The notes under the pieces are model-generated. The model searched no databases and was not told the origin of the DNA. It saw only the letters and a program-made list of their open reading frames with translations. Of a stretch of 64,000 nucleotides of DNA, positions 7,726 through 60,931 are shown piece after piece. Source of the stretch: Actinomycetota bacterium (GTDB taxonomy: Bacteria > Actinomycetota > Thermoleophilia > Gaiellales > Gaiellaceae); contig VAWR01000056.1 of assembly GCA_005885245.1 (NCBI GenBank), positions 1 through 64,000 of the forward strand, given 5' to 3'. Each line of letters starts with the position of its first letter. The stretch's first letter is position 1. A program made the translations under genes and the position numbers.

Positions 7726-8582
7726 GTCGCGGCCTCCGCGAGCACGAAGGCGAAGAACACCATGCTCATCACACCGTTCACCGTGAAGAACGCGGCATTC
7801 AACCGCCGCAGGTCGCCGGGTCGGACGAGCGAATGCTCGTACGCGAGCAGCAACGCGACCGCGAGGACGCCGAGCCAGTACAACCAGCCGAGGTGCAAGC
7901 CGAGGCCGACCGCGGCAAGCAAGAGCACCGTCGCCACGTGCAAGAGGCGGGCACCCAAAACCGCACCTTCGACCCCAAACCGCACCGCAACCGAATGCAA
8001 GCCCTGCTGGACGTCGAAGTCCCGATCGAACAGCGAATAGAAGAGGTCGAAGCCGGCCACCCAGAACGCCACGGCTGCACCGAGCGCCCAGGCCTCCCAC
8101 GGCAGCCGCCCGGTGATTGCGACCCACGCGCCAACCGGGGCGAGCCCGTCGACGACTCCCAACCAGATGTGGCTCAGCCACGTGAACCGCTTCAGATACG
8201 GATAGACGACGAAGCCGACCAGTGGAATCGGCCAGAGCCAGCGCACGATCGGATCGAGCTGAAAGCAGGCGACCAGGTAGAGCGCGAACGCGAGCGCACA
8301 GAAGGCCGCCACCTGCAGACGGGAGAGCCGTCCCGACGGCAGCTCGCGATCGGCGGTGCGCGGATTGCGCGCGTCGATCTCCGCATCGATGAGGCGGTTC
8401 AGACCCATCGCCAACGACCGGCCGCCGAGCATGGCCAGGGTGATCCAGACGAGATCGTGGGCGCTCGGGACCTGGCGCACGCACAGCAACGCGCCGATGT
8501 ACGCGAACGGGAGCGCGAAGACCGTGTGCTCGATCTTCACCAGCGACGCGAAACGTCGCGGCAGGGCTGCCGTTGCGTTCAC
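7722..8582 (-). CDS. UbiA-family prenyltransferase
   Basis: A 286-residue intramembrane prenyltransferase with eight or nine helices. The first aspartate-rich motif is NRLIDAEIDARNPRT (about 62-76, N/DxxxDxxxD type) and the second is YSLFDRDFDVQ (about 188-198). These bind the prenyl diphosphate through Mg2+. The best family match is 4-hydroxybenzoate or related quinone-pathway polyprenyltransferases (UbiA/MqnP type); the aromatic acceptor is unknown. GTG at 8582 overlaps the mogA TGA as GTGA. A longer upstream frame lacks family similarity. Confidence 0.9.
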   Translation of the reverse strand: MNATAALPRRFASLVKIEHTVFALPFAYIGALLCVRQVPSAHDLVWITLAMLGGRSLAMGLNRLIDAEIDARNPRTADRELPSGRLSRLQVAAFCALAFALYLVACFQLDPIVRWLWPIPLVGFVVYPYLKRFTWLSHIWLGVVDGLAPVGAWVAITGRLPWEAWALGAAVAFWVAGFDLFYSLFDRDFDVQQGLHSVAVRFGVEGAVLGARLLHVATVLLLAAVGLGLHLGWLYWLGVLAVALLLAYEHSLVRPGDLRRLNAAFFTVNGVMSMVFFAFVLAEAAT

Positions 8583-9058
8583 GTCGACCTGTGCTCGGAC
8601 TGCTCGCCGCCGATCAGCTCGACAGCATGTCGGAGCGCCGGCTTGATCAGCGCGAAGCCGTCGCGGCATCCGCCGGGCGAGCCCGGCAGGTTCACGATCA
8701 GCGTGCGACCGCGGATCCCGGCAACGCCGCGGCCGAGCAGGCCATGCGGCGTTTTTTCGATCGCGTCGGCGCGAAGCGTCTCGGCGATTCCGGGAACGCG
8801 GCGGTCGAGAACGGAGTCCGTCGCCTCGGGAGTGAAGTCGCGTGGCGAGACGCCCGTGCCGCCCGTCGTCAGGATCAACCGGGCATGCTGAGAGAGCTCG
8901 CGCAGCGCCGCGGCGATCTTCGGCCGATCGTCGGGAACGACACGATGCTCGACGTCGAACTTCTCAGCTTCCAGCAGCTCGACCAGAAGGCCCCCGCTCT
9001 CGTCCTCCCGCTCACCCGCCGAGACGCCGTCCGAGACGGTGACGACCGCGGCCCTCAG
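8579..9058 (-). CDS. mogA: molybdenum cofactor biosynthesis protein MogA/MoaB-like (CTG start)
   Basis: Adenylyltransferase-fold protein of molybdopterin synthesis, 159 residues. TTGGTGVSPRDFTPEAT (about residues 65-81) and the late NLPGSPGG motif are family signatures. The conserved start (initiator)-R-A-A-V-V-T-V-S-D falls exactly on CTG at 9058. This CTG overlaps the moaC stop as CTGA and is preceded by AAGGA four bases upstream. No ATG, GTG or TTG is in frame near this position, so CTG initiation coupled to moaC termination is my best reading. Confidence 0.9.
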   Translation of the reverse strand: MRAAVVTVSDGVSAGEREDESGGLLVELLEAEKFDVEHRVVPDDRPKIAAALRELSQHARLILTTGGTGVSPRDFTPEATDSVLDRRVPGIAETLRADAIEKTPHGLLGRGVAGIRGRTLIVNLPGSPGGCRDGFALIKPALRHAVELIGGEQSEHRST

Positions 9059-22089: not shown

Positions 22090-23519
22090 AGCGCCTCCCT
22101 TTCCTTCCGAGCGCGCGCATGCTCCTTGCCGCCGGCGTTGCCGCATACGCCGCCGGCTTCGCGGCCCTCTCCGCACTCCGTCACGACGCCTTCGTGACCG
22201 GACGCTTCGACCTCGGGAACATGGTGCAGGCCGTCTGGTCGACCGCGCACGGCCACCCGCTGCGGATGACGGACCTCCACGGCGACCAGATCTCGCGGCT
22301 CGCAGCACACGTCGATCCCATCCTCGTGCTCTTCGCTCCACTGTGGTGGCTCTGGCCCAGCCCACAGCTGTTGCTCGTCGCGCAGGCACTCGTGGTCGCG
22401 CTCGGCGCCGTCCCGGTCTTCCTCCTCGCGCGCAAGCACCTCCGCTCGGCGCGCGCCGGACTCGGCTTCGCGCTCGCCTACCTCCTGTATCCCGCGACCG
22501 GCTGGCTGACCCTGAACGAGTTCCATCCCGTCGCACTCGCGACCACCTTTCTCCTGGTCGCGTTCTGGTACCTCGACGAGGACCGGCTGCTTCCGTTCGC
22601 ACTGTTCGCGATCGCAGCGGCCGCCTGCAAGGAGGAGATCGCGCTCGTCGTTGCAGGCTTCGGGATCTGGTATGCACTCGCGCGGCGAAGGTGGATCGCC
22701 GGCGTTGTCATCGCGGCCGCCGGAGGCATCTGGGCGGCGATCGCCATCGCGGTTGTCATCCCGCATTACAACGCCGGCGCTGAATCGGACTTCTACGGAC
22801 GCTACAGCGAGGTCGGCGGCTCCGCAGGCGGGATCCTGAAGACAGCCGTGACGCATCCCCTCCGGATCGCGGAAGCGGCGTTTAGCTCACGCGACCTCCA
22901 GTACCTCCTCCAGCTCGTCATGCCGCTCGCCGGCCTGTGCCTCCTCGCGCCGCTCGTCCTGGTTGCCGCGCTCCCGGAGCTTGCGATCAATCTCCTGTCG
23001 GCGACGACGACCCAGACGTCGATCCACTTTCACTACACGGCGGGTCTCATCCCACCGCTCGTGATCGCCGCGGTCTTCGGGGCCAAGCGACTCGGCCGTT
23101 GGGCTGTACCCATCGCAATGCTCGTCGTCCTCGCGGCGCTCATCGGCAACTACCGGTTGGGCCCGATCCCCGGCTGGCGACATCTCCCGGGCGGCGAGCA
23201 GTTCCAGGCGACCGCGCAGCGCGTCACCGACCACGATCGGATCGCCGATCGCGCGCTCTCGCTCATTCCGCACAGTGCTGTCGTCAGCGCGACGAATACG
23301 CTCGGCGGACATCTCTCGGCCCGCGCGCGCGTCCTGAGCTTCCCGTTCCTGCAGGACGCCACGTGGGTGGCCGCTGACGAGACGCAGCCCGGCTTCGCCG
23401 ACCGCTATGCGCCGCTGCCGACGGCGATCCAGCTCGGAGCGCTACGACGGAACCCGGAGTGGCGACTCGTCTTCGAGCAGGACGGGATCCTGATCTTTCA
23501 CCGGCGCTCGGCGACGTAG
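22086..23519 (+). CDS. DUF2079 multi-pass membrane protein
   Basis: A 477-residue membrane protein with about nine to eleven helices. It has the family marks RFDLGNMVQAVWSTAHGHPL (about 40-59), DQISRLAAHVDPILVLFAPLW and a DEDRL loop. The family is of unknown function and resembles GT-C glycosyltransferases in layout. GTG at 22086 overlaps the preceding TGA (GTGA). The last 26 codons overlap the 3' end of the convergent GT87 gene, an unusually long antisense overlap of 78 bases. Confidence 0.87.
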   Translation: MKRLPFLPSARMLLAAGVAAYAAGFAALSALRHDAFVTGRFDLGNMVQAVWSTAHGHPLRMTDLHGDQISRLAAHVDPILVLFAPLWWLWPSPQLLLVAQALVVALGAVPVFLLARKHLRSARAGLGFALAYLLYPATGWLTLNEFHPVALATTFLLVAFWYLDEDRLLPFALFAIAAAACKEEIALVVAGFGIWYALARRRWIAGVVIAAAGGIWAAIAIAVVIPHYNAGAESDFYGRYSEVGGSAGGILKTAVTHPLRIAEAAFSSRDLQYLLQLVMPLAGLCLLAPLVLVAALPELAINLLSATTTQTSIHFHYTAGLIPPLVIAAVFGAKRLGRWAVPIAMLVVLAALIGNYRLGPIPGWRHLPGGEQFQATAQRVTDHDRIADRALSLIPHSAVVSATNTLGGHLSARARVLSFPFLQDATWVAADETQPGFADRYAPLPTAIQLGALRRNPEWRLVFEQDGILIFHRRSAT

Positions 23520-24692
23520 GCCGGCGAGGACGAGGGCGTACAGGGCAACGACGACGAGATCGCGAAGCAGGACGAGCCAGACGTAGCCGCCGAGGCCGAA
23601 CACGTCGCGGTAGTGGAAGAACCAGAGCTGGGCCAGGACGAGGGCAACGGCGGCGAGAGCCCATGCCGCGGGGCCGAGCAGCGCTACGAAGGGAACGAGC
23701 CAGACCAGGTACTGGGGAGAGAAGAAACGCGTGAATGCGAGGAAGCCGCCGATCGCCGCTGCAAACGCGACGGTCAATCGCCGAGGATCGTCCCGGCCGC
23801 GGAGGTAGAGCCACGCCACAGCGAGCACGGCCAGACCCTGCGCCACCGAGCTCAGCACGGCGAGTGCGTCCGGCAGGGAACCGACCAGGTCGTAGGAGAT
23901 CGCGTGCCCGGTTCGGTGGACGACGGTCGCGGTGTAGAGGCCGAGTCGATCGGAGACGGCAAGCGCCGAGCCGGCGAGGCTCTCCACCTGCAGCGAGCGG
24001 CCGGCCTGCGCACGGAAGCTCTCGGCGAGGCCGTGCGGCGAGAGCGCGAGGAACGGCACGATCAGGAGCGCGGCAGCACCCGTGAAAGCGCCCAGCGCAC
24101 GCAAGGCCTTCTCCCGTCCACCCGTGCGCCACACGAAGGCGAGCGCCGGAGGCAACAGGACGATCGGATACACCTTGGCAGCGAAGGCAACTCCGGCAAG
24201 TGCGAGCGCAGCGACAGCGCCGCCGGCGAGGAGCAGCCCGAGTGCGGCGATCGTCAGGAGGGCCGGCCACGCGTCGTAGGTGTTGAGCGAGATCGGTCCG
24301 AGCGCGAGCGGAGAAAGCGCGAACAACAGAGTGCCCGACCAGATCCGCGATTCCGACGCGCCGAGCCGGACGAGGAGCAAGGCGATCACGACCAGCGTCG
24401 CAACGCCGCAGAGTGCCATCAACGTCTTGAAGGCGGCGTTGTAGTGCGACGAACCGAACGCGGCGGGCGGGAGGAAGACCGCAAGCGCACCGGGCGGGTA
24501 CTCCATGAAGAAGTCGCGATAGGGAACACGGCCGTCGAAGACGACCTGCGCAAAACCCTGGTAGAGGTGGACGTCACGAAAGCGTGCCGCCCGGAAGAGT
24601 CCGCCGTCCGGAACCGCGCAGGCGGCGAGGTAGACCGGCGTCGCGACGGCCGCCGCGCGCAGCGCGAGCCTACGGCGGGGATCCGTTACCAG
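23442..24692 (-). CDS. GT87-like (DUF2029) polyprenyl-phosphate-dependent glycosyltransferase, non-standard start
   Basis: A membrane mannosyltransferase-like GT-C protein with many helices. The conserved luminal motif runs from HLYQGFAQVVFDGRVPYRDF into FMEYPPGALAVF. The first in-frame ATG (24506) lies inside this motif, so the true start is upstream. In-frame codons back into the PBP gene include no ATG, GTG or TTG; CTG occurs at 24662 and 24692. I use 24692 because it keeps a basic segment (TDPRRRLALR) before the first helix (about 416 residues). It overlaps the PBP gene end. Confidence 0.75.
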   Translation of the reverse strand: MVTDPRRRLALRAAAVATPVYLAACAVPDGGLFRAARFRDVHLYQGFAQVVFDGRVPYRDFFMEYPPGALAVFLPPAAFGSSHYNAAFKTLMALCGVATLVVIALLLVRLGASESRIWSGTLLFALSPLALGPISLNTYDAWPALLTIAALGLLLAGGAVAALALAGVAFAAKVYPIVLLPPALAFVWRTGGREKALRALGAFTGAAALLIVPFLALSPHGLAESFRAQAGRSLQVESLAGSALAVSDRLGLYTATVVHRTGHAISYDLVGSLPDALAVLSSVAQGLAVLAVAWLYLRGRDDPRRLTVAFAAAIGGFLAFTRFFSPQYLVWLVPFVALLGPAAWALAAVALVLAQLWFFHYRDVFGLGGYVWLVLLRDLVVVALYALVLAGLRRRAPVKDQDPVLLEDESPLRVPS

Positions 24693-40756: not shown

Positions 40757-41854
40757 ATGAAAATCGTTACGCAAAGGGGCGACCTGGCGCAGAAGCTCGG
40801 CGTCGTTGCTCGTGCGGTCTCGACCCGTGCGAGCGTGCAGATTCTGTCCGGTGTCTTGCTCCGTGCGGAGGGAAGTCGCTTGCACCTGGCGGCGACCGAC
40901 ATGGAGTTGTCGTTGCGCTCCTCGGTGGACGCCCAGATCGACGGGGACGGCTCCATCGTCGTGCCGGGGAGGCTGCTGGTGGAGCTCGTCAGGCTGCTGC
41001 CCGAGAGCGAGGTGACGATCGAGCATCGCGCCGAGGAGAGTGTCGTGCACGTCACGTCCGGCTCCTCGACCTCCACGCTACACACGTACGCGGCGGAGGA
41101 TTTTCCGCGTCTGCCTGACCTCGACGCGGTGGGCACGTTCACCGTGGACCGTGTGTCGCTGCTCGACACCGTCTCGCGGGTGGCGCGGTCCGCGTCGCGC
41201 GACGAATCGCGGCCGGTGCTGACCGGAATCCTCGTGCGCTTCGAGGCCGGCAAGCTCGTGATGGCGGCGCCCGACTCCTACCGGTCGTCGGTGAAGGAGA
41301 CGGAGCTCGGTGGTGACGTCCCGGAGTTGGAAGCGATCATCCCGGCCCGGGCCCTCGCGGAGCTCTCACGGATCGCGCAGGCGGGCGATGCCGTCGAGTT
41401 GGGCGTGCACGACAACCAGGTGGTGTTCGCAGCGGACGATGTGTGGCTGACGACCCGCCGCATCGACGGACAATTTCCGAACTACAAGCAGCTGTTGCCG
41501 GAGACGTTCGAGTACGACGTGACGCTTCCGCGGAACGAGGTATTGGACGTCGTTCGCCGTGTCGGGATCATGGTGCAGCGAACGTCGCCGATCCAGTTGC
41601 GCTTCGCCGAAGGTGAACTGACCGTCTTCGCGCGAACGCAGGACATCGGCGAAGCAAAGGAATCACTGCCGGTGCAGTTTTCCGGCGAACCGCTCGAGAT
41701 CGGATTCAACGCGGAGTTCCTCCGCGAGGGCATCGAGTCGATCGGCGAAGACGAGATCAAGCTACGGCTGATCTCGCCGCTTCGTCCCGCAGTGATCGAG
41801 GGTGGCGAGGACGACCCGACGTACCTGATCATGCCGATCCGGTTGCCGGGATGA
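40757..41854 (+). CDS. dnaN: DNA polymerase III beta sliding clamp
   Basis: A 365-residue processivity clamp with three repeated domains. MKIVTQRGDLAQKLG at ATG 40757 is the family start, with a purine-rich ribosome site directly before it; an upstream ATG at 40724 adds 11 non-conserved residues. Later parts include SRPVLTGILVRFEAG, the RRIDGQFPNYKQLLP motif, and the C-terminal YLIMPIRLPG. Confidence 0.97.
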   Translation: MKIVTQRGDLAQKLGVVARAVSTRASVQILSGVLLRAEGSRLHLAATDMELSLRSSVDAQIDGDGSIVVPGRLLVELVRLLPESEVTIEHRAEESVVHVTSGSSTSTLHTYAAEDFPRLPDLDAVGTFTVDRVSLLDTVSRVARSASRDESRPVLTGILVRFEAGKLVMAAPDSYRSSVKETELGGDVPELEAIIPARALAELSRIAQAGDAVELGVHDNQVVFAADDVWLTTRRIDGQFPNYKQLLPETFEYDVTLPRNEVLDVVRRVGIMVQRTSPIQLRFAEGELTVFARTQDIGEAKESLPVQFSGEPLEIGFNAEFLREGIESIGEDEIKLRLISPLRPAVIEGGEDDPTYLIMPIRLPG

Positions 41855-41909: not shown

Positions 41910-42971
41910 CTGATCGTCGGCACGGTTTCGCTGCGCAACATCCGGTCGTACGCTCGCCTCGACCTCGACCTCGAGCCGGGATTGGTGCTCGTCGTCGGGC
42001 CGAACGGCGCCGGCAAGACGAACCTGCTCGAGTCGCTGCACGTGGGAACCCAGGGCTTTTCGCCTCGCACTCGCGCCGATGCGCAACTCGTTCGTTTCGG
42101 CGAACGGGCCGGCCGGATCGGGCTCGGTGGTAAACGGGGCGAGCGGGCAGTCGAGCTCGAGGTGACGATTGAGCTGGGGGAAGGGAAGAGGGCGAAGCTG
42201 AACGGGGCCTCGCTGCGCGCTGCCGAACAGCTGCGGTCCGAGGTCGCAACGTTGGTGTTCACGCCAGACCGGCTTGCGGTGGTCAAGGGAGGCCCTGCCG
42301 TGCGTCGCGCCTATTTCGATCGGGTGATCGGCAGGCTGCTGCCCGCTCGTGCGCCCATGATCATCGAGTACGGCGCTGCAATCGCACAGCGAAACGCTGC
42401 CCTACGCCGTGCGTCCGGAGGCTATTCGTCCCGCGATGCGATCGGACCGTGGACGGAGCAGGTCGCGGCGCTGGGGCAGCAGCTCGTCGAAGCCCGGACG
42501 GAAGTGGTCGCAGCACTGGCGCCGGGCTTCGCGGCTCGAGCCGACGAGCTCGGCTTGCCTGCCGCGCGCATGAGCTATGACGGAGAGCCGCCGACCGCCG
42601 AGGCACTCGAAGCCCGGCTCGAGCGGGACCTCGAGCGGGGTGCCACCGGGCTCGGCCCGCATCTCGACGACGTCGTTCTGACGAGCGGCGCGCGCGACCT
42701 ACGCAGTTTCGGTTCGCAGGGGGAGCAGCGGCTGACGGTGCTCGCCCTCCTGCTGGCGGAGGCCGAGCTCATCGCAGAGCGCCGCGGCTTCGCGCCGCTC
42801 CTGCTTCTCGACGACGTCCTCTCGGAGCTCGATCCGGACCGCAGGCGAGTGCTCGCCACCCGTGTCCTCGAGGGCGGGCAGACGCTGATCACGGCCACGC
42901 AGGCATCCTCGCTGCCGATGCGTCCGGCGCAGCTGCTGGAGGTCTCGCCGGGGCTCGTCCGGGCGGCCTGA
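41910..42971 (+). CDS. recF: DNA repair/replication protein RecF (CTG start)
   Basis: An SMC-like ATPase of about 353 residues for gap repair. The conserved opening (initiator)-I-V-G-T-V-S-L-R-N-I-R-S-Y lies before Walker A GPNGAGKT (30-37). It then shows LRSEVATLVFTPDRLAVVKGGP and the C-terminal signature near SFGSQGEQRLTVLALLLAEA and LLLDDVLSELD. The first in-frame TTG/GTG (41982/41985) would remove the first strand and leave Walker A near the N-terminus. The only fitting start is CTG at 41910, 55 bases after the dnaN stop. Confidence 0.92.
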   Translation: MIVGTVSLRNIRSYARLDLDLEPGLVLVVGPNGAGKTNLLESLHVGTQGFSPRTRADAQLVRFGERAGRIGLGGKRGERAVELEVTIELGEGKRAKLNGASLRAAEQLRSEVATLVFTPDRLAVVKGGPAVRRAYFDRVIGRLLPARAPMIIEYGAAIAQRNAALRRASGGYSSRDAIGPWTEQVAALGQQLVEARTEVVAALAPGFAARADELGLPAARMSYDGEPPTAEALEARLERDLERGATGLGPHLDDVVLTSGARDLRSFGSQGEQRLTVLALLLAEAELIAERRGFAPLLLLDDVLSELDPDRRRVLATRVLEGGQTLITATQASSLPMRPAQLLEVSPGLVRAA

Positions 42972-50176: not shown

Positions 50177-51001
50177 CTACCGCGCAAGGGTAGGAGCTGC
50201 CGCCGCGCGTAGCCTTGCGGCCGCTTCTTCCGGCGCAAGGGTATTGACGAAGATCTCTGCGCCGAGCTCGAGGCCGGCAAAGATCGTCAGTCGCGGAAAC
50301 AGGACCAGCTGCCAGTCGCGGTCGCTGTGTTCGAGCCACGCGTTCAGCGGCGCTGGCCCTTCCAGGGTGTGCAAGTGCCGGACGACCTTCGCGAGGAGCC
50401 GCAGCGCGGGTCCCAGTCGGTCGCTGCTCAAGGCGTCGGGTTCAGGATCCACGGGCGCCACGACTGTCTCGTACGGGACGCGGCTCGCCCAGGGGCAGGC
50501 GACGGTCAACCCGCCTTCGGTGAGGACGGTTTCGCCCCGAGGCCGGGCCCGATGACGAGGCGGTTCCGGCAGCCAGACGAGCTGTGAGTGCGAATGCGGC
50601 AGGCTCGCGCCCGCCTCGCGGCCCTCGTTCAGGAGCGGAAAGATGTAGCCGGGCTCCGCCCGAGCTCGCCTGCGCCAGGCGTCCGCGACCAGGTCGAGCT
50701 CCCTGTCCTCCAGCTCGGCAATGGAGCGCACGTGCCGCCGGCTGTGGACGACGACCTCTTGTCGGGCGAATGCCGGGTAGAGATTTGGAACGACGCGCAC
50801 GCTCCAATCGCCCTCCTCCGGCAGGACGAGCGCCTGCGGCGGGGTCATGTGCTCATGACCTGCGCAGAATGGGCACGACGCGAGCTCCTCCGGCGTCGGC
50901 GGATCGAGCTGCGGGCGTGAGGCGCCCGGACGCCTGGCCCGGCCGGGCGCGATCACAGCGAGGCGCCCTGACTCCGGATCGCGGCGAAGCTCGCCGCTCA
51001 G
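50177..51001 (-). CDS. galT: galactose-1-phosphate uridylyltransferase-like HIT protein (CTG start)
   Basis: A 274-residue nucleotidyltransferase. The conserved opening (initiator)[18 protein letters not shown] starts exactly at CTG 51001, which overlaps the SPFH-gene TGA as CTGA; the first GTG (50956) would delete this motif. The zinc-binding CPFCAGHE lies near residue 43, and the catalytic HIT-like motif is [12 protein letters not shown] (His-x-His). Shorter than E. coli GalT (348), so the sugar could be other than galactose. Confidence 0.85.
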
Positions 51002-55867: not shown

Positions 55868-56476
55868 ATGCAACTGCCACGTAGCCGCCGCCGTCCAATT
55901 CACCAGACCTTCCGTTCGGAGGGGCCACTCGTCTATGCACGGCTGAGCGATCCGATTCTGGTGAAACGAGCGAAGGACGGCGACAGGCAGGCGCTCGCGG
56001 CGCTCTGTGAGCGGCACGCCCCGCGCGTGGAGAAGCTCGCCGGGCACCTCTTGCGTGATCCGGAAGATGCCCGCGACGCTGCCCAGGAGGCGCTGACGAA
56101 GCTCTGTACTCGGATCGGACAGTTCCGGGGGGAATCGCAGTTCTCCACGTGGCTGCACCGCCTGACCATGAATGCCTGCAGCGACGTTGCGAAGCGTCAG
56201 AGCGCCCGGGCCTGCGAACCGCTGCTCGAGGATCGCCGGGCGTCGACCGATGCCGACCCGGCGCGCGAGGCCGATCGAGCGGAGCTCCGTGGCGAGTTGA
56301 ACCGTCGCCTCGGCGAGATTCCGCCCGACCAGGCCCGAGTGGTCGTCCTGAAGGACGCGCTCGGCCTGTCGTTCGAAGAGATCGCCGCTGCAGCCAGGAT
56401 GCCCGTCGGAACGGCGAAGTGCTACGCGCACCGGGGCCGCAATCAGCTGCGGGACAAGCTCTCGGACGTCGCGTGA
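55868..56476 (+). CDS. ECF-type sigma-70 RNA polymerase sigma factor
   Basis: A 202-residue sigma factor. Region 2 is [19 protein letters not shown] (about 62-80) with [12 protein letters not shown]; region 4 is [20 protein letters not shown] (about 167-186) followed by [10 protein letters not shown]. No zf-HC2 anti-sigma gene is adjacent; fabZ follows by 10 bases, so it may cotranscribe with or control fatty-acid genes. ATG 55868 follows a TACACT box (55852-55857) closely. An extended N-terminus (about 25 residues) is unusual. Confidence 0.88.
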
Positions 56477-56486
56477 TCATCGGCCG

Positions 56487-56927
56487 GTGACCGTCACGAC
56501 GCCTTTCGGCCGGGAAGCGATCGAGGAGATCCTTCCCCACCGCGAGCCCTTTCTCTTGATCGACGAGGTGCTCGAGCTTCGGCCGGGCGAGGGCGCGGTC
56601 GCCCGGAAGACCGTGCGCGAGGACGAGTGGTACCTCCGCGGTCACTTTCCGGGCCGTCCGGTGATGCCCGGCGTCCTGATCGTCGAGGCCCTGGCTCAGA
56701 CCGGCGCTGTGGCGGTGTTGAGCGAGGAGGAGAACCGCGGTCGGCTGGCGCTCTTCGCAGGCATCGACGAGTGCCGGTTCAAGCGTCTCGTCGAGCCGGG
56801 CGACGTGCTCGAGTTGCGCTGCGACCTCGAACGCGTCCGCGGGCCGATCGGTCGCGGGAAGGCGGAGGCACGGGTCGGCGGCGAGCTCGCGTGTCGAGCA
56901 GTGCTGACCTTCGCGGTGGAGCGATGA
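56487..56927 (+). CDS. fabZ: 3-hydroxyacyl-ACP dehydratase FabZ
   Basis: A 146-residue hot-dog dehydratase of [22 protein letters not shown] (about 12-28) and the catalytic-His motif [20 protein letters not shown] (52-71) are complete, with the Glu in the helix. GTG at 56487 lies 10 bases after the sigma gene. First of the fabZ-fabH-fabD-fabG-fabF run. Confidence 0.96.
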
Positions 56928-57026
56928 GCGGCGCGCGGAGATGGTGAACCCTGAAGAAGCGGGCTCGTGGGGGAAGCATGGTTTCCCTCACGGGAGAGAG
57001 CCGCAGGCGAACGACGCGGGGGAGCA

Positions 57027-58016
57027 ATGATCGGCAAAGCGGCCGGGCCGCCGATCTCGATCACGGGTCTGGGTGCCTATGCCCCGGATCGCGTGCTCAC
57101 GAACGATGAGCTCTCGACGATCGTCGACACGACCGATGAGTGGATCATGGAGCGCACGGGCATTCGGGAACGCCGGATCGCCGCGCCCGAGCAGGCCCTC
57201 ACCGACCTCGCCCTTCCGGCCGCGCACGCGGCACTCGACGGGGCGGGGGTGGCGGCGCGCGACATCGACCTTCTGCTCTGCGCAACCGTCACGCCGGACA
57301 TGATGTTCCCCACGTCGAGCGCTCTCCTCGCAGACATGCTGGGCGCGGAGGACGCCGCGGCGTGCGACCTCCTCGCCGGCTGCACGGGCTTCATGTATGC
57401 GCTTGCGCAGGCGTACGGAATGATCGCTGCGGGTCTCGCCGGCCGCGCACTGGTCGTCGGTGGAGACGTCCTGTCGCGCATCCTCGACTGGACCGACCGC
57501 TCGACCCTCGTGCTGTTCGGAGACGGTGCGGGCGCGGTGGTGCTCGAGAAGGTCGATCGCCCGGGCTTCCTGGGCTTCGAGCTCGGAGCGGACGGCGGCG
57601 GCGGGGTCCACCTCTCGCTTCCGGGTAGCGGCTCTCGTCACATCGAGGACGCGACGGGCAACGGTTACGTGCAGATGAACGGAAGAGAGGTCTTCAAGTT
57701 CGCGACCCGCGTCCTCGTCTCATCCGCACAAGCCGTGCTCGATCGCTGTGACGCCTCCGTCGACGACGTCGACGTCTACATTCCCCACCAGGCGAACGTC
57801 AGAATCATGGATCATGCGGCCCAGAAGCTGGGCATCCCGCGCGAGCGCATGGTGGTTAACGTTGACCGGTATGGCAATACCTCATCCGGTTCGATCCCGC
57901 TGGCACTGGCGGACGCGCAGGCGCAAGACAGGTTGAAGGAAGGAGATCTGGTGCTGATGACGGGCATGGGAGCAGGGCTCACCTGGGGCTCCGCGCTGAT
58001 GGAGTGGACCCGATGA
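57027..58016 (+). CDS. fabH: 3-oxoacyl-ACP synthase III
   Basis: A 329-residue condensing enzyme starting fatty-acid chains from acyl-CoA and malonyl-ACP. The nucleophile is Cys119 in LLAGCTGFMYAL, with His in VYIPHQANVRI and Asn in VDRYGNTSSGSIPLAL. ATG 57027 follows GGGGGAG; the 99-base gap after fabZ contains GGGAA and TTTCCC arms around 56981-56996. Its TGA overlaps fabD (ATGA). Confidence 0.96.
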   Translation: MIGKAAGPPISITGLGAYAPDRVLTNDELSTIVDTTDEWIMERTGIRERRIAAPEQALTDLALPAAHAALDGAGVAARDIDLLLCATVTPDMMFPTSSALLADMLGAEDAAACDLLAGCTGFMYALAQAYGMIAAGLAGRALVVGGDVLSRILDWTDRSTLVLFGDGAGAVVLEKVDRPGFLGFELGADGGGGVHLSLPGSGSRHIEDATGNGYVQMNGREVFKFATRVLVSSAQAVLDRCDASVDDVDVYIPHQANVRIMDHAAQKLGIPRERMVVNVDRYGNTSSGSIPLALADAQAQDRLKEGDLVLMTGMGAGLTWGSALMEWTR

Positions 58017-58945
58017 AGAGGGGCCTCGTCGCATTCTGCTTCCCCGGCCAGGGCTCGCTCGAGGTGGGCATGGGCCGGGACATCGCCGCGGCTGTGCCGG
58101 AAGCGATGGACGTCTTCGAGCGGAGCAGCATCGCTGCCGGGCTCGATCTCAAGCGGCTTTGCTTCGAAGCCTCCGAGGAGGAGCTGGTCGAGACGGAGGT
58201 GCAACAGCCCGCCCTCGTCGCGACGAGTCTCGCTGTCTTGGCCGCACTTCGCGCGCGCGGGATCAAGCCCGATTTCGTCATCGGCCACTCGGTGGGAGAG
58301 TTCGCCGCGCTTGCGGCGGCGGGAGCGCTGAAGGTCGAAGAGGCGGTGGCGCTCGTGCGGGAGCGTGGATTGGCGATGGCCGAGGCCGCGCGCACGAATC
58401 CCGGCTCGATGGCCGCGATCCTCGGCCTTGACGACGAAGTCGTCGAGCGCATCTGCCGGCGCATCCTCAACGTGTGGCCTGCGAACTACAACTGCCCCGG
58501 CCAGATCGTGGTCTCCGGCGAGACCCTCGCGGTCGACGAAGCGTGTGCCACCGCCGAGGAGGAGGGCGCGCGCCGTGCCGTGAAGTTGCGGGTCTCCGGC
58601 GCCTTCCACAGCCCGCTCGTGGCACGCGCCGCCGATCGGCTGCGACCCGCACTGGAGCGGGTCAGGTTCGTCGAGCCGACCGCACCCTTCATGTCCACGG
58701 TGACCGCCCGGATCGAGTCGGCAAAGCGGATGGGCCCCTTGCTGGTCGAGCAGCTCACCGCGCCCGTTCGGTTCACGCAGGCAGCGCAGGCGTTGATCAA
58801 GGAAGGCGCGCACACCTTCGTCGAGGTCGGTCCAGGCAACGTGCTCGGCGGGCTCGTGAAGCGAATCGATCGGAGCGTGAAGACCGTGTCCGTCTCGACG
58901 CCCGAGGAGATCGACAAGCTCGAGGAGACCCTCGCCTCTGCCTGA
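58013..58945 (+). CDS. fabD: malonyl-CoA:ACP transacylase
   Basis: A 310-residue transferase loading malonate onto ACP. FCFPGQGSLEVGMG at the start forms the oxyanion region, the nucleophile is Ser93 in GHSVGEFAAL, and catalytic His is in SGAFHSPLV (about 201). GPGNVLGGLVKR is the C-terminal signature. ATG 58013 overlaps the fabH TGA. Confidence 0.96.
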   Translation: MKRGLVAFCFPGQGSLEVGMGRDIAAAVPEAMDVFERSSIAAGLDLKRLCFEASEEELVETEVQQPALVATSLAVLAALRARGIKPDFVIGHSVGEFAALAAAGALKVEEAVALVRERGLAMAEAARTNPGSMAAILGLDDEVVERICRRILNVWPANYNCPGQIVVSGETLAVDEACATAEEEGARRAVKLRVSGAFHSPLVARAADRLRPALERVRFVEPTAPFMSTVTARIESAKRMGPLLVEQLTAPVRFTQAAQALIKEGAHTFVEVGPGNVLGGLVKRIDRSVKTVSVSTPEEIDKLEETLASA

Positions 58946-59672
58946 ACTGCGATTCGCGTCGCTGGAAGGGAAGACCGCCCTCGTCACCGGCGGTTCGCGG
59001 GGGATCGGGCGGGCAATCGCCGTCGAGCTCGCGCGTGCCGGGGCCGATGTCACTCTCAGCTACCGCTCGGGCAAGGACGAGGCGGAGGAGGTGGCGAAGG
59101 AGGCGGGCGCTCGCGCCGTCGAGGCCGACGTCTCGGATCCTGAGCAGGCGAGGTCGTTGGTCGATGCTGCCGGCGAGCTCGACGTACTCGTCAACAACGC
59201 GGGCATCACGCGCGATGGGTTGCTCGCGCGTATGTCGGACGAAGACTGGCGGATCGTGATCGAGACGAATCTTCACGGCACGTTCCATACGTGCAGAGCC
59301 GCGGTGCGCGGAATGATGAAGCGCCGCGTCGGCGCGATCGTCAACGTCTCGAGCATCGTCGGCCTGCACGGGAATCCGGGCCAGACGAATTACTCGGCCT
59401 CCAAGGCGGGCATCATCGGCTTCACGAAGGCACTCGCACGCGAGCTCGGCAATCGGGGCGTACGCGCAAACGTCGTAGCGCCGGGCTACATCGATACGCG
59501 GTTGACGCAGGTGATCGCCGACGACATGAAGGAGCTCATGCTGGCCAACACTCCGCTCGGCCGCTTCGGCCGGCCGGAGGACGTCGCGGGGGCGGTACGG
59601 TTCCTATGCTCGGACGCCGCCGCTTTCATCACCGGCGAGGTCTTGCTCGTCGACGGGGGACTGGGGATGTAA
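58938..59672 (+). CDS. fabG: 3-oxoacyl-ACP reductase FabG (CTG start)
   Basis: An SDR reductase of about 244 residues. The canonical opening LEGKTALVTGGSRGIGRAI, with the NADP Rossmann loop, lies wholly upstream of the first in-frame GTG (59091). Upstream to the previous stop only CTG codons are available: 58938, 58947 and 58962. I chose 58938, which has GAGGAG about ten bases before it and overlaps the fabD end. Catalytic Ser, Tyr, Lys are in VNVSSIVGLHG and YSASKAGIIGF. Its stop overlaps fabF (TAATG). Confidence 0.92.
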   Translation: MPELRFASLEGKTALVTGGSRGIGRAIAVELARAGADVTLSYRSGKDEAEEVAKEAGARAVEADVSDPEQARSLVDAAGELDVLVNNAGITRDGLLARMSDEDWRIVIETNLHGTFHTCRAAVRGMMKRRVGAIVNVSSIVGLHGNPGQTNYSASKAGIIGFTKALARELGNRGVRANVVAPGYIDTRLTQVIADDMKELMLANTPLGRFGRPEDVAGAVRFLCSDAAAFITGEVLLVDGGLGM

Positions 59673-60931
59673 TGGCTGTCAACGGCAACGGACATAGGCG
59701 AGTCGTCATCACCGGGATCGGAGCCCTCACACCCCTCGGCAACGACGCCGAGACCTCCTGGCGGAACCTGGTCGCCGGTGAGTCGGGGGCGGGCCCGATC
59801 ACGCAGTTCGATTCGAGTGACTACTTCGTCCATTTCGCGTGCGAGGTGAAGGACTTCGACCCTTCGAACTGGATCGACCGCAAGCAGGCGAGGCGGATGG
59901 ACCGGTTCGCCCAGCTCATCCTGGCCGCTGCGCGCCAGGCCGAGGCCGACTCGGGACTCGAAATCGCCGCCGACGGCGATCGCATCGGTGCATCGATCGC
60001 AACCGGGATCGGTGGGATCAAGTCGTTCCAGGATTGCTACGACACATTGATCCGGCGGGGGCCCGACCGGGTGAACCCGTTTGCGATCCCGTGCATCATC
60101 CCGAACATGGGCGCGGGCTGGGTATCGATGGAGCTCGGCACACGCGGTCCGTTGTCCTCCGAGTGCACGGCGTGCGCAGCGTCGAACATGGCGATCGGGC
60201 AGGGGCTCGACGACATTCGACTCGGGCGGGCGGACGTGATGCTGTGCGGCGGCACTGAATCCGCGATCAACCAGGTCGGCATCGCCGGCTTCGGCGCGAT
60301 GCGCGCCCTCTCGCGGCGAAACGACGACCCGAAGGGGGCGAGCCGCCCGTTCGACGCAGGGCGCGACGGATTCGTGATGGGCGAGGCCGGTGCGGTGCTT
60401 GTCCTCGAAGAGCTCGAGCGCGCCCGCGCACGAGGCGCCAAGATCTACGCGGAGGTTGCCGGATACGGGCTTTCCTCCGATGCGAAGCACGTGACCGAGC
60501 CAGATCCGACCGGCCGAAATCCCGCCCGGGCGATGACGATGGCCTTTGCGGACGCGGGAATCGATCCGAAGGAGGTGGACTACATCAACGCGCACGGAAC
60601 CTCGACTCCGCTGGGCGACGCGGCGGAGACGCGCGTCATCAAGCTTGCGCTCGGCGAGGAGAAGGCAGGTATGACGCCGATCTCGTCGACGAAGGGCGCG
60701 ACCGGCCATTGTCTCGGAGCCGGCGGCGCCGTCGAAGCGATCTTTTCGACGCTCGCGATCCGCGACGGCAAGCTTCCGCCCACGATCAACTACGAGGTGG
60801 AGGACCCGGAGTGCGACCTCGACTACATCCCGAACGAGTCGCGTGACGCCGACGTGCGCGTCTCGGTGTCGAACTCGTTCGGCTTCGGCGGGCACAACGC
60901 GTCGATCGTCCTGAAGCGCCTACAGGAGTAG
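59672..60931 (+). CDS. fabF: 3-oxoacyl-ACP synthase II
   Basis: A 419-residue elongating condensing enzyme. The active-site Cys168 lies in ECTACAASNMAIG; the two histidines are in NAHGTSTPLGDAAE and GATGHCLGAGGAVEA. It starts ATG within the fabG stop. No acyl carrier protein gene lies between fabG and fabF or elsewhere in this run, although that is its usual place. It uses the FSNSFGFGGHN-type C-terminal motif (VSNSFGFGGHN). Confidence 0.96.
   Translation: MAVNGNGHRRVVITGIGALTPLGNDAETSWRNLVAGESGAGPITQFDSSDYFVHFACEVKDFDPSNWIDRKQARRMDRFAQLILAAARQAEADSGLEIAADGDRIGASIATGIGGIKSFQDCYDTLIRRGPDRVNPFAIPCIIPNMGAGWVSMELGTRGPLSSECTACAASNMAIGQGLDDIRLGRADVMLCGGTESAINQVGIAGFGAMRALSRRNDDPKGASRPFDAGRDGFVMGEAGAVLVLEELERARARGAKIYAEVAGYGLSSDAKHVTEPDPTGRNPARAMTMAFADAGIDPKEVDYINAHGTSTPLGDAAETRVIKLALGEEKAGMTPISSTKGATGHCLGAGGAVEAIFSTLAIRDGKLPPTINYEVEDPECDLDYIPNESRDADVRVSVSNSFGFGGHNASIVLKRLQE

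Follow-up and report, generated by a model that had tools for sequence, protein, structure and literature searches.

CTG as the apparent start codon of two housekeeping genes, fabG and recF, in the Gaiellaceae

At least two housekeeping genes of the Gaiellaceae, fabG of fatty acid synthesis and recF of DNA repair, appear to start at CTG. The Gaiellaceae are soil bacteria known mostly from environmental DNA, and CTG is a start codon that is almost never seen in bacteria. We analysed a stretch of 64,000 nucleotides (hereafter the window), which lies in contig 170 of a draft genome of 3.2 Mb in 213 contigs (G000). With good confidence, we favour as the best overall explanation that fabG of the window initiates at CTG 58938, an old start codon that has been retained in the Gaiellaceae and that also serves recF. 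An earlier note on this DNA had proposed, for fabG as a single gene, that translation begins at CTG. Orthologues support that proposal and also single out CTG 58938 among the candidates. The finding is wider than the one gene, since it extends to recF and, less firmly, to a moaB-like and a galT-like gene.

The fabG frame of the window is open from 58881, directly behind an in-frame TGA at 58878-58880, to its stop codon at 59670-59672. Ahead of the glycine motif TGGSRGIG, which forms the Rossmann loop, this frame contains no ATG, GTG or TTG, and CTG occurs at 58938, 58947 and 58962 only. The first canonical codon, GTG 59091, lies past TGGSRGIG. The CTG and GTG positions are as the earlier note gave them, and a start at GTG 59091 would indeed delete the loop, as it had pointed out. 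Its distance of about 100 bases from the upstream TGA holds for the glycine motif but not for the first CTG, which is about 60 bases away. Counted from CTG 58938, the proposed fabG gene (3-oxoacyl-ACP reductase; 58938..59672, + strand) has 244 codons plus the stop. Its product scored 309.9 bits against NCBIfam TIGR01830 over residues 14-242, above the cut-off of 297.75, and fell below the own cut-offs of several PRK FabG models. TGGSRGIG and YSASK stand in one frame, that is, a TGxxxGxG loop together with YxxxK, motifs that we take to mark the FabG/3-oxoacyl-ACP reductase type. We conclude that the gene encodes a predicted FabG. The Pfam adh_short match opens at residue 12 counted from CTG 58938, and solved relatives align from residues 5-14 (among 60 matches listed of 311).

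The gene sits between fabD and fabF, with a fabH-like ORF, named from its sequence, ahead of fabD. Upstream, fabD (malonyl-CoA:ACP transacylase; 58013..58945, + strand) scored 291.3 bits against NCBIfam TIGR00128 (cut-off 260.9), and its TGA stop codon at 58943-58945 overlaps the proposed fabG start. Downstream, fabF (59672..60931, + strand; TIGR03150, 582 bits, cut-off 493.75) begins at ATG in a TAATG overlap with the fabG stop. The whole fab cluster occupies 56352-60931 of the window, where ORFs that look FabZ-like and FabH-like are followed by fabD, fabG and fabF; an acyl carrier protein gene is absent between fabG and fabF. The earlier note assumed that the enzyme is essential. The genome of the window has 22 FabG-like matches, and this gene might accordingly be a decayed copy, or be expressed as a short form from GTG 59091, while another FabG does the work. 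We consider this highly improbable: the frame is intact and above the TIGR01830 cut-off, most orthologues with 64-91% identity preserve the loop and the residues ahead of it (F-A/C-S-L-E/D-G-K...TGGSRGIG), and the gene has its place between fabD and fabF.

We gathered 96 fabG loci from 94 of the 103 Gaiellaceae genomes searched, together with eight loci from two sister families; the other nine Gaiellaceae genomes, one of them from the genus of the window, had no fabG match at E 1e-70. To class the loci, we took the canonical codon closest to the loop within the range of 9-30 codons ahead of it, and we located the fabD stop for each. Among the Gaiellaceae loci, 43 were of the GTG class, 22 of the TTG class and nine of the ATG class, 21 had CTG only, and one had none of these. 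Eight of the nine loci from the genus of the window are CTG-only. Measured from the fabD stop, the CTG of the 21 CTG-only loci is at -5 nt in 19 and at -8 in one; in G116 it lies clear of fabD, 166 nt beyond the stop and preceded by GGGAG. In other Gaiellaceae loci the -5 codon is TTG (18 loci) or GTG (one locus), and many loci start elsewhere, chiefly at the -1 offset (GTG 30, ATG 6, TTG 2). In the sister families the -5 codon is ATG in four loci and GTG in two, and the other two loci have TTG at -11. The earlier note had suggested looking at whether the CTG is conserved in orthologues or replaced there, and both are the case: it is the only candidate in loci from 10 Gaiellaceae genera, and elsewhere its place is taken by TTG, GTG or ATG.

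In the CTG-only loci, in-frame CTG at other fabD codon positions (59 tested) occurred in 5 of 1210 cases. The CTG at -5 thus exceeds chance, although the contrast of 19/21 with 5/1210 is inflated and partly built in, as the loci were chosen for having CTG. Independent support for a CTG start comes from relatives, in which this codon is replaced by TTG, GTG or ATG. Such replacement by other start codons in orthologues was seen both for the -5 codon of fabG and for the corresponding codon of recF, described below. In a quick tree of fabG with many weak branches, the distribution of CTG and not-CTG requires at least 11 changes, and CTG is present among early-branching members of the family. Single loci differ in detail. 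G001, from the genus of the window, is without the CTG and has GTG instead, and its fabD stop lies 207 nt before the motif. In G025 a GTG is present in addition to the CTG, 12 codons ahead of the motif, and the CTG-only locus of G006 has canonical codons 47-58 codons upstream, beyond the 9-30 codon range. The fabG of G016 (L006, L035), with 83% identity, lacks both CTG and any canonical codon over the part of the upstream frame inspected; a start might lie at an ATA 17 codons ahead of the loop. Two genomes, G065 (L115, L180) and G080 (L138, L142), each carry two loci of the fabD-fabG type on separate contigs.

The genome of the window is a draft, and a sequencing or assembly error could in principle have turned an ATG, GTG or TTG into CTG. 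We regard the chance of this as very small: eight of nine fabG loci from the genus of the window have CTG at the same offset, as do loci of other genera, several of them in differently named records, and CTG is at the start of recF in 35 of 37 loci.

The position of the start is likewise indicated by the orthologues. The proposed initiation codon, CTG 58938..58940 (+ strand), lies in an 8-nt overlap with fabD (CTGCCTGA), and a Shine-Dalgarno-like AGGAG inside fabD (58923..58927, + strand) precedes it with a spacer of 10 nt. Among the 21 CTG-class loci, AGGAG at spacer 10 was found in 12, another GGAG-containing word in eight and GGTG in one. A Shine-Dalgarno-like sequence at normal distance was thus present at fabG, the gene whose loci were examined for this feature. 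Direct observations are that the codon is CTG, that it is conserved, that other start codons replace it in relatives and that a Shine-Dalgarno-like sequence precedes it.

We considered it unlikely that fabG starts at one of the two further CTG codons. Both are in the fabG frame upstream of the Rossmann loop, and the second CTG (58947..58949, + strand) is one nucleotide past the fabD stop codon, inside the usual range for re-start. However, among CTG-class loci only the genome of the window has this codon (0 of 20 others have a counterpart at +4 from the fabD stop), and the Shine-Dalgarno-like GAGGAG is 19 nt away from it. The third CTG (58962..58964, + strand) is an ordinary leucine codon of S-L-E-G-K, which across the 96 Gaiellaceae loci is CTC in 62, CTG in 28, CTT in three, CTA in two and TTG in one. 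Hence, CTG 58938 was picked over 58947 and 58962 because it is this position that orthologues conserve. The overlap of the two frames at the fabD stop, where fabG is +1 relative to fabD in the CTG class, would also permit a FabD-FabG fusion made by +1 frameshifting near that stop, with no start codon for fabG at all. We judge this very unlikely, as loci with GTGA or ATGA overlaps combine another frame relation with a canonical start, in the TTG loci, which share the frame relation of the CTG class, the place is occupied by a canonical TTG, and the CTG of G116 is well separated from the fabD stop. We conclude that fabG of the window most likely starts at CTG 58938, which would be an evolutionarily retained start.

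A comparison of the window with contigs from the same genus flagged two further genes, recF and the galT-like gene. The recF gene (41910..42971, + strand; TIGR00611, 254.2 bits, cut-off 172) has a proposed CTG start at 41910, and a dnaN-type stop precedes it at 41852-41854. The Pfam match opens five residues from the CTG, with no canonical codon between. We read 37 Gaiellaceae recF loci from 17 genera, a sample that leans to near relatives (the best 30 of 92 genomes matched, a single locus of G026 and of G090, and five more loci). The start codon was CTG in 35 and GTG in two (G003 and G009, both from the genus of the window), with no other codon seen. By comparison, the leucine seven codons past the start is CTC in 15, CTG in 12 and CTT in 10 of the same loci, and CTG accounts for 96 of 326 leucine codons in the 60 codons after the start. 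An in-frame canonical codon up to 40 codons upstream was present in three of the 37 loci. Among 20 outgroup recF genes, the homologous codon is GTG in 10, ATG in one and CTG in none; the other nine have no start codon exactly there, their nearest canonical codons being at other positions. One outgroup gene (G132) has no canonical codon within 25 codons, only a CTG three codons before the anchor. Judged by the C-terminal motif of dnaN, the recF CTG overlaps the dnaN stop in 16 of the 37 loci. In the 21 loci without this overlap the start is CTG in 19. Since the CTG persists without the overlap, coupling cannot be a full explanation. The case for recF is stronger than that for fabG, with CTG nearly fixed in the loci read and replaced only by GTG.

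On thinner evidence, two more genes of the window show the same CTG pattern as fabG. A moaB/mog-like gene (8579..9058, - strand) has a proposed CTG start at 9058-9056, where it overlaps, as CTGA, with the end of an upstream gene resembling moaC. Its Pfam MoCF_biosynth match opens at residue 4, no canonical codon lies between the CTG and the match, and the next canonical codon is 60 codons past the CTG. In the one close orthologue compared (G026), the aligned codon is GTG. The galT-like gene (50177..51001, - strand) has a possible CTG start at 51001-50999, also in a CTGA overlap with the upstream stop. The CTG is at the same codon in G000, G001, G002 and G009, and not in G004 and G006. A GTG 15 codons past the CTG is an alternative start, and conservation between the two is the sole support for the CTG; the Pfam GalP_UDP_transf match begins only at residue 81, and the domain is therefore not decisive for this start.

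Further candidate CTG starts were noticed in passing. A GT87 gene of the window (23445-24662) has one, and in G009 CTG is also present, with a GTG 19 codons further up. In a sigma-70 gene of G000 (L200:17024-18085, - strand), the frame opens two codons before the CTG, which is preceded by AGGAG with a spacer of 9 and followed by the next canonical codon 55 codons on. Other candidates in G000 are in genes for an acyl-CoA carboxylase-type carboxyltransferase (L204) and an FAD oxidoreductase (L189). In G026, a purA-like gene (near 387,660; L293) has CTG where G090 has ATG, before AHVPATVIVGAQWGDEGKG, a possible CTG start. At the aligned start of a small conserved protein, G026 (104296-104514, L279) has GTG and G090 (1613214-1613423, L314) has CTG; in both genomes GAGGTG precedes this codon by 7 nt, and the letters are NTGNCTGA-like, as they are at fabG.

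We also looked at CTG starts across whole genomes. Comparisons of G000 with G026 (58 pairs kept) and of G026 with G090 were dropped, since wrong-frame or mis-anchored pairs dominated; pairs without any start in the reference made up 88/208 and 87/208. A gene model based on codon usage gave only CTG near the onset of coding in 14 of 257 genes of G000, 26 of 772 of G026 and 47 of 799 of G090, lists that include many unclear cases; neither CTG nor a canonical codon was near the onset in 10, 25 and 40 genes, respectively. Shine-Dalgarno words of at least four letters preceded 5/14, 10/26 and 13/47 of the CTG-only onsets. The corresponding fractions were 0.19, 0.20 and 0.19 for random internal CTG codons, and 0.48, 0.51 and 0.43 for canonical candidates, taken as the best within the span searched. 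In 347 orthologue pairs of G026 and G090 we found CTG opposite NTG in 14 and CTG in both in 20; 60 pairs of G000 and G026 gave one and four, and 65 pairs of G000 and G090 gave three and two. For control codons in the 347 pairs the counts were GTC 31, ATC 11, GCG 11, CTC 10, GAG 4, ACG 4, TCG 4 and AAG 1. The count of 14 in these pairs is above those of GAG, ACG, TCG and AAG, and has no clear margin over GTC, ATC, GCG and CTC. We give no genome-wide rate of CTG starts, because many of the orthologue-pair rows are plainly internal leucine codons or wrong frames.

A broader reading would be that the Gaiellaceae use CUG as a regular fourth start codon, following an ancestral shift in initiation stringency that was kept family-wide. 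Such a shift might lie in the initiator tRNA, IF3, the ribosome or reinitiation, and CTG would thereby have replaced GTG or ATG at many genes. We hold this to be possible, if rather less probable than its opposite. If it were true, perhaps a few percent of the genes in a soil lineage would have wrongly annotated N-termini.

For fabG itself, we infer initiation at CTG 58938, methionine as the first residue and coupling to fabD from the sequences compared. Translation would begin at CTG 58938 to give (f)Met-PELRFASLEGKTALVTGG. Ribosomes may reach this codon by way of the AGGAG that lies within fabD 10 nt before it, by re-start after termination at the overlapping stop of fabD, or by both, and the CUG would most likely be read by the ordinary initiator tRNA. 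The codon may be regarded as an old, retained initiation codon of the Gaiellaceae that is interchangeable with TTG, GTG and ATG, and that would also serve recF and probably some other genes. G000 has 41 tRNA matches; the loci of the best 30 of these were scanned and gave one tRNA-Met (CAT). Its anticodon stem is GGG/CCC, presumably typical of initiators, which would make this tRNA initiator-like. An IF3 match came from 29 of the 31 genomes, G000 among them. No unusual initiator tRNA was seen among those best 30 of 41 tRNA matches, and no unusual IF3 in the search of the 31 genomes. The IF3 match of G002 (G002:C78:8015-8269, L258) contains one in-frame TGA, perhaps an assembly error.

To our knowledge, CTG is not accepted as a start by the gene finders in common use for bacteria. 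Gene callers that ignore it would cut or mis-start RecF, FabG and perhaps other proteins in the Gaiellaceae. A gene that retains its CTG start across 17 genera, with GTG as the sole substitute, would offer a natural system for studying what sets start-codon stringency. It would also allow one to ask whether termination-reinitiation relaxes that stringency.

Among the literature matches listed for CTG or CUG starts, there was no report for the Gaiellaceae or Gaiellales. Weak initiation at CUG in bacteria is already known. One study reports 70S complexes from E. coli in which a variant initiator tRNA is bound at CUG, with weak pairing at the first position (PMC11497404). Another, citing Hecht and co-workers, names seven codons as the strongest for initiation in E. 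coli, CUG being one of them (PMC12350097). Switches to CUG are almost absent in a prokaryote survey, where ancestral starts had changed to CUG in 2 of 61,358 AUG, 1 of 5,080 GUG and 1 of 2,468 UUG cases (PMC5622118). The Gaiellaceae genes resemble the rare cases from E. coli and from prokaryote surveys in using CUG as a near-cognate start. However, the switches in that survey are isolated, whereas 35 of the 37 genomes read, which represent 17 genera, share the CUG at recF. There is also a likeness to the GTG and TTG starts of high-GC Actinomycetota, as the position and the overlap architecture are the same and the codons are interchangeable in fabG. In contrast, a mycobacterial library study reports that CTG was not enriched as a start and that CTG starts are few there (PMC4633059). 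Coupled overlapping gene pairs (NTGA and the like) are matched by the 8-nt overlap of fabD and fabG and by CTGA at dnaN/recF and at the galT-like and moaB-like genes; in the Gaiellaceae, however, the initiator is CTG, and it persists in 19 of 21 recF loci without the overlap. Finally, non-AUG starts of chloroplast genes are likewise reported to have been kept in evolution (PMC9845219), whereas the Gaiellaceae are free-living bacteria.
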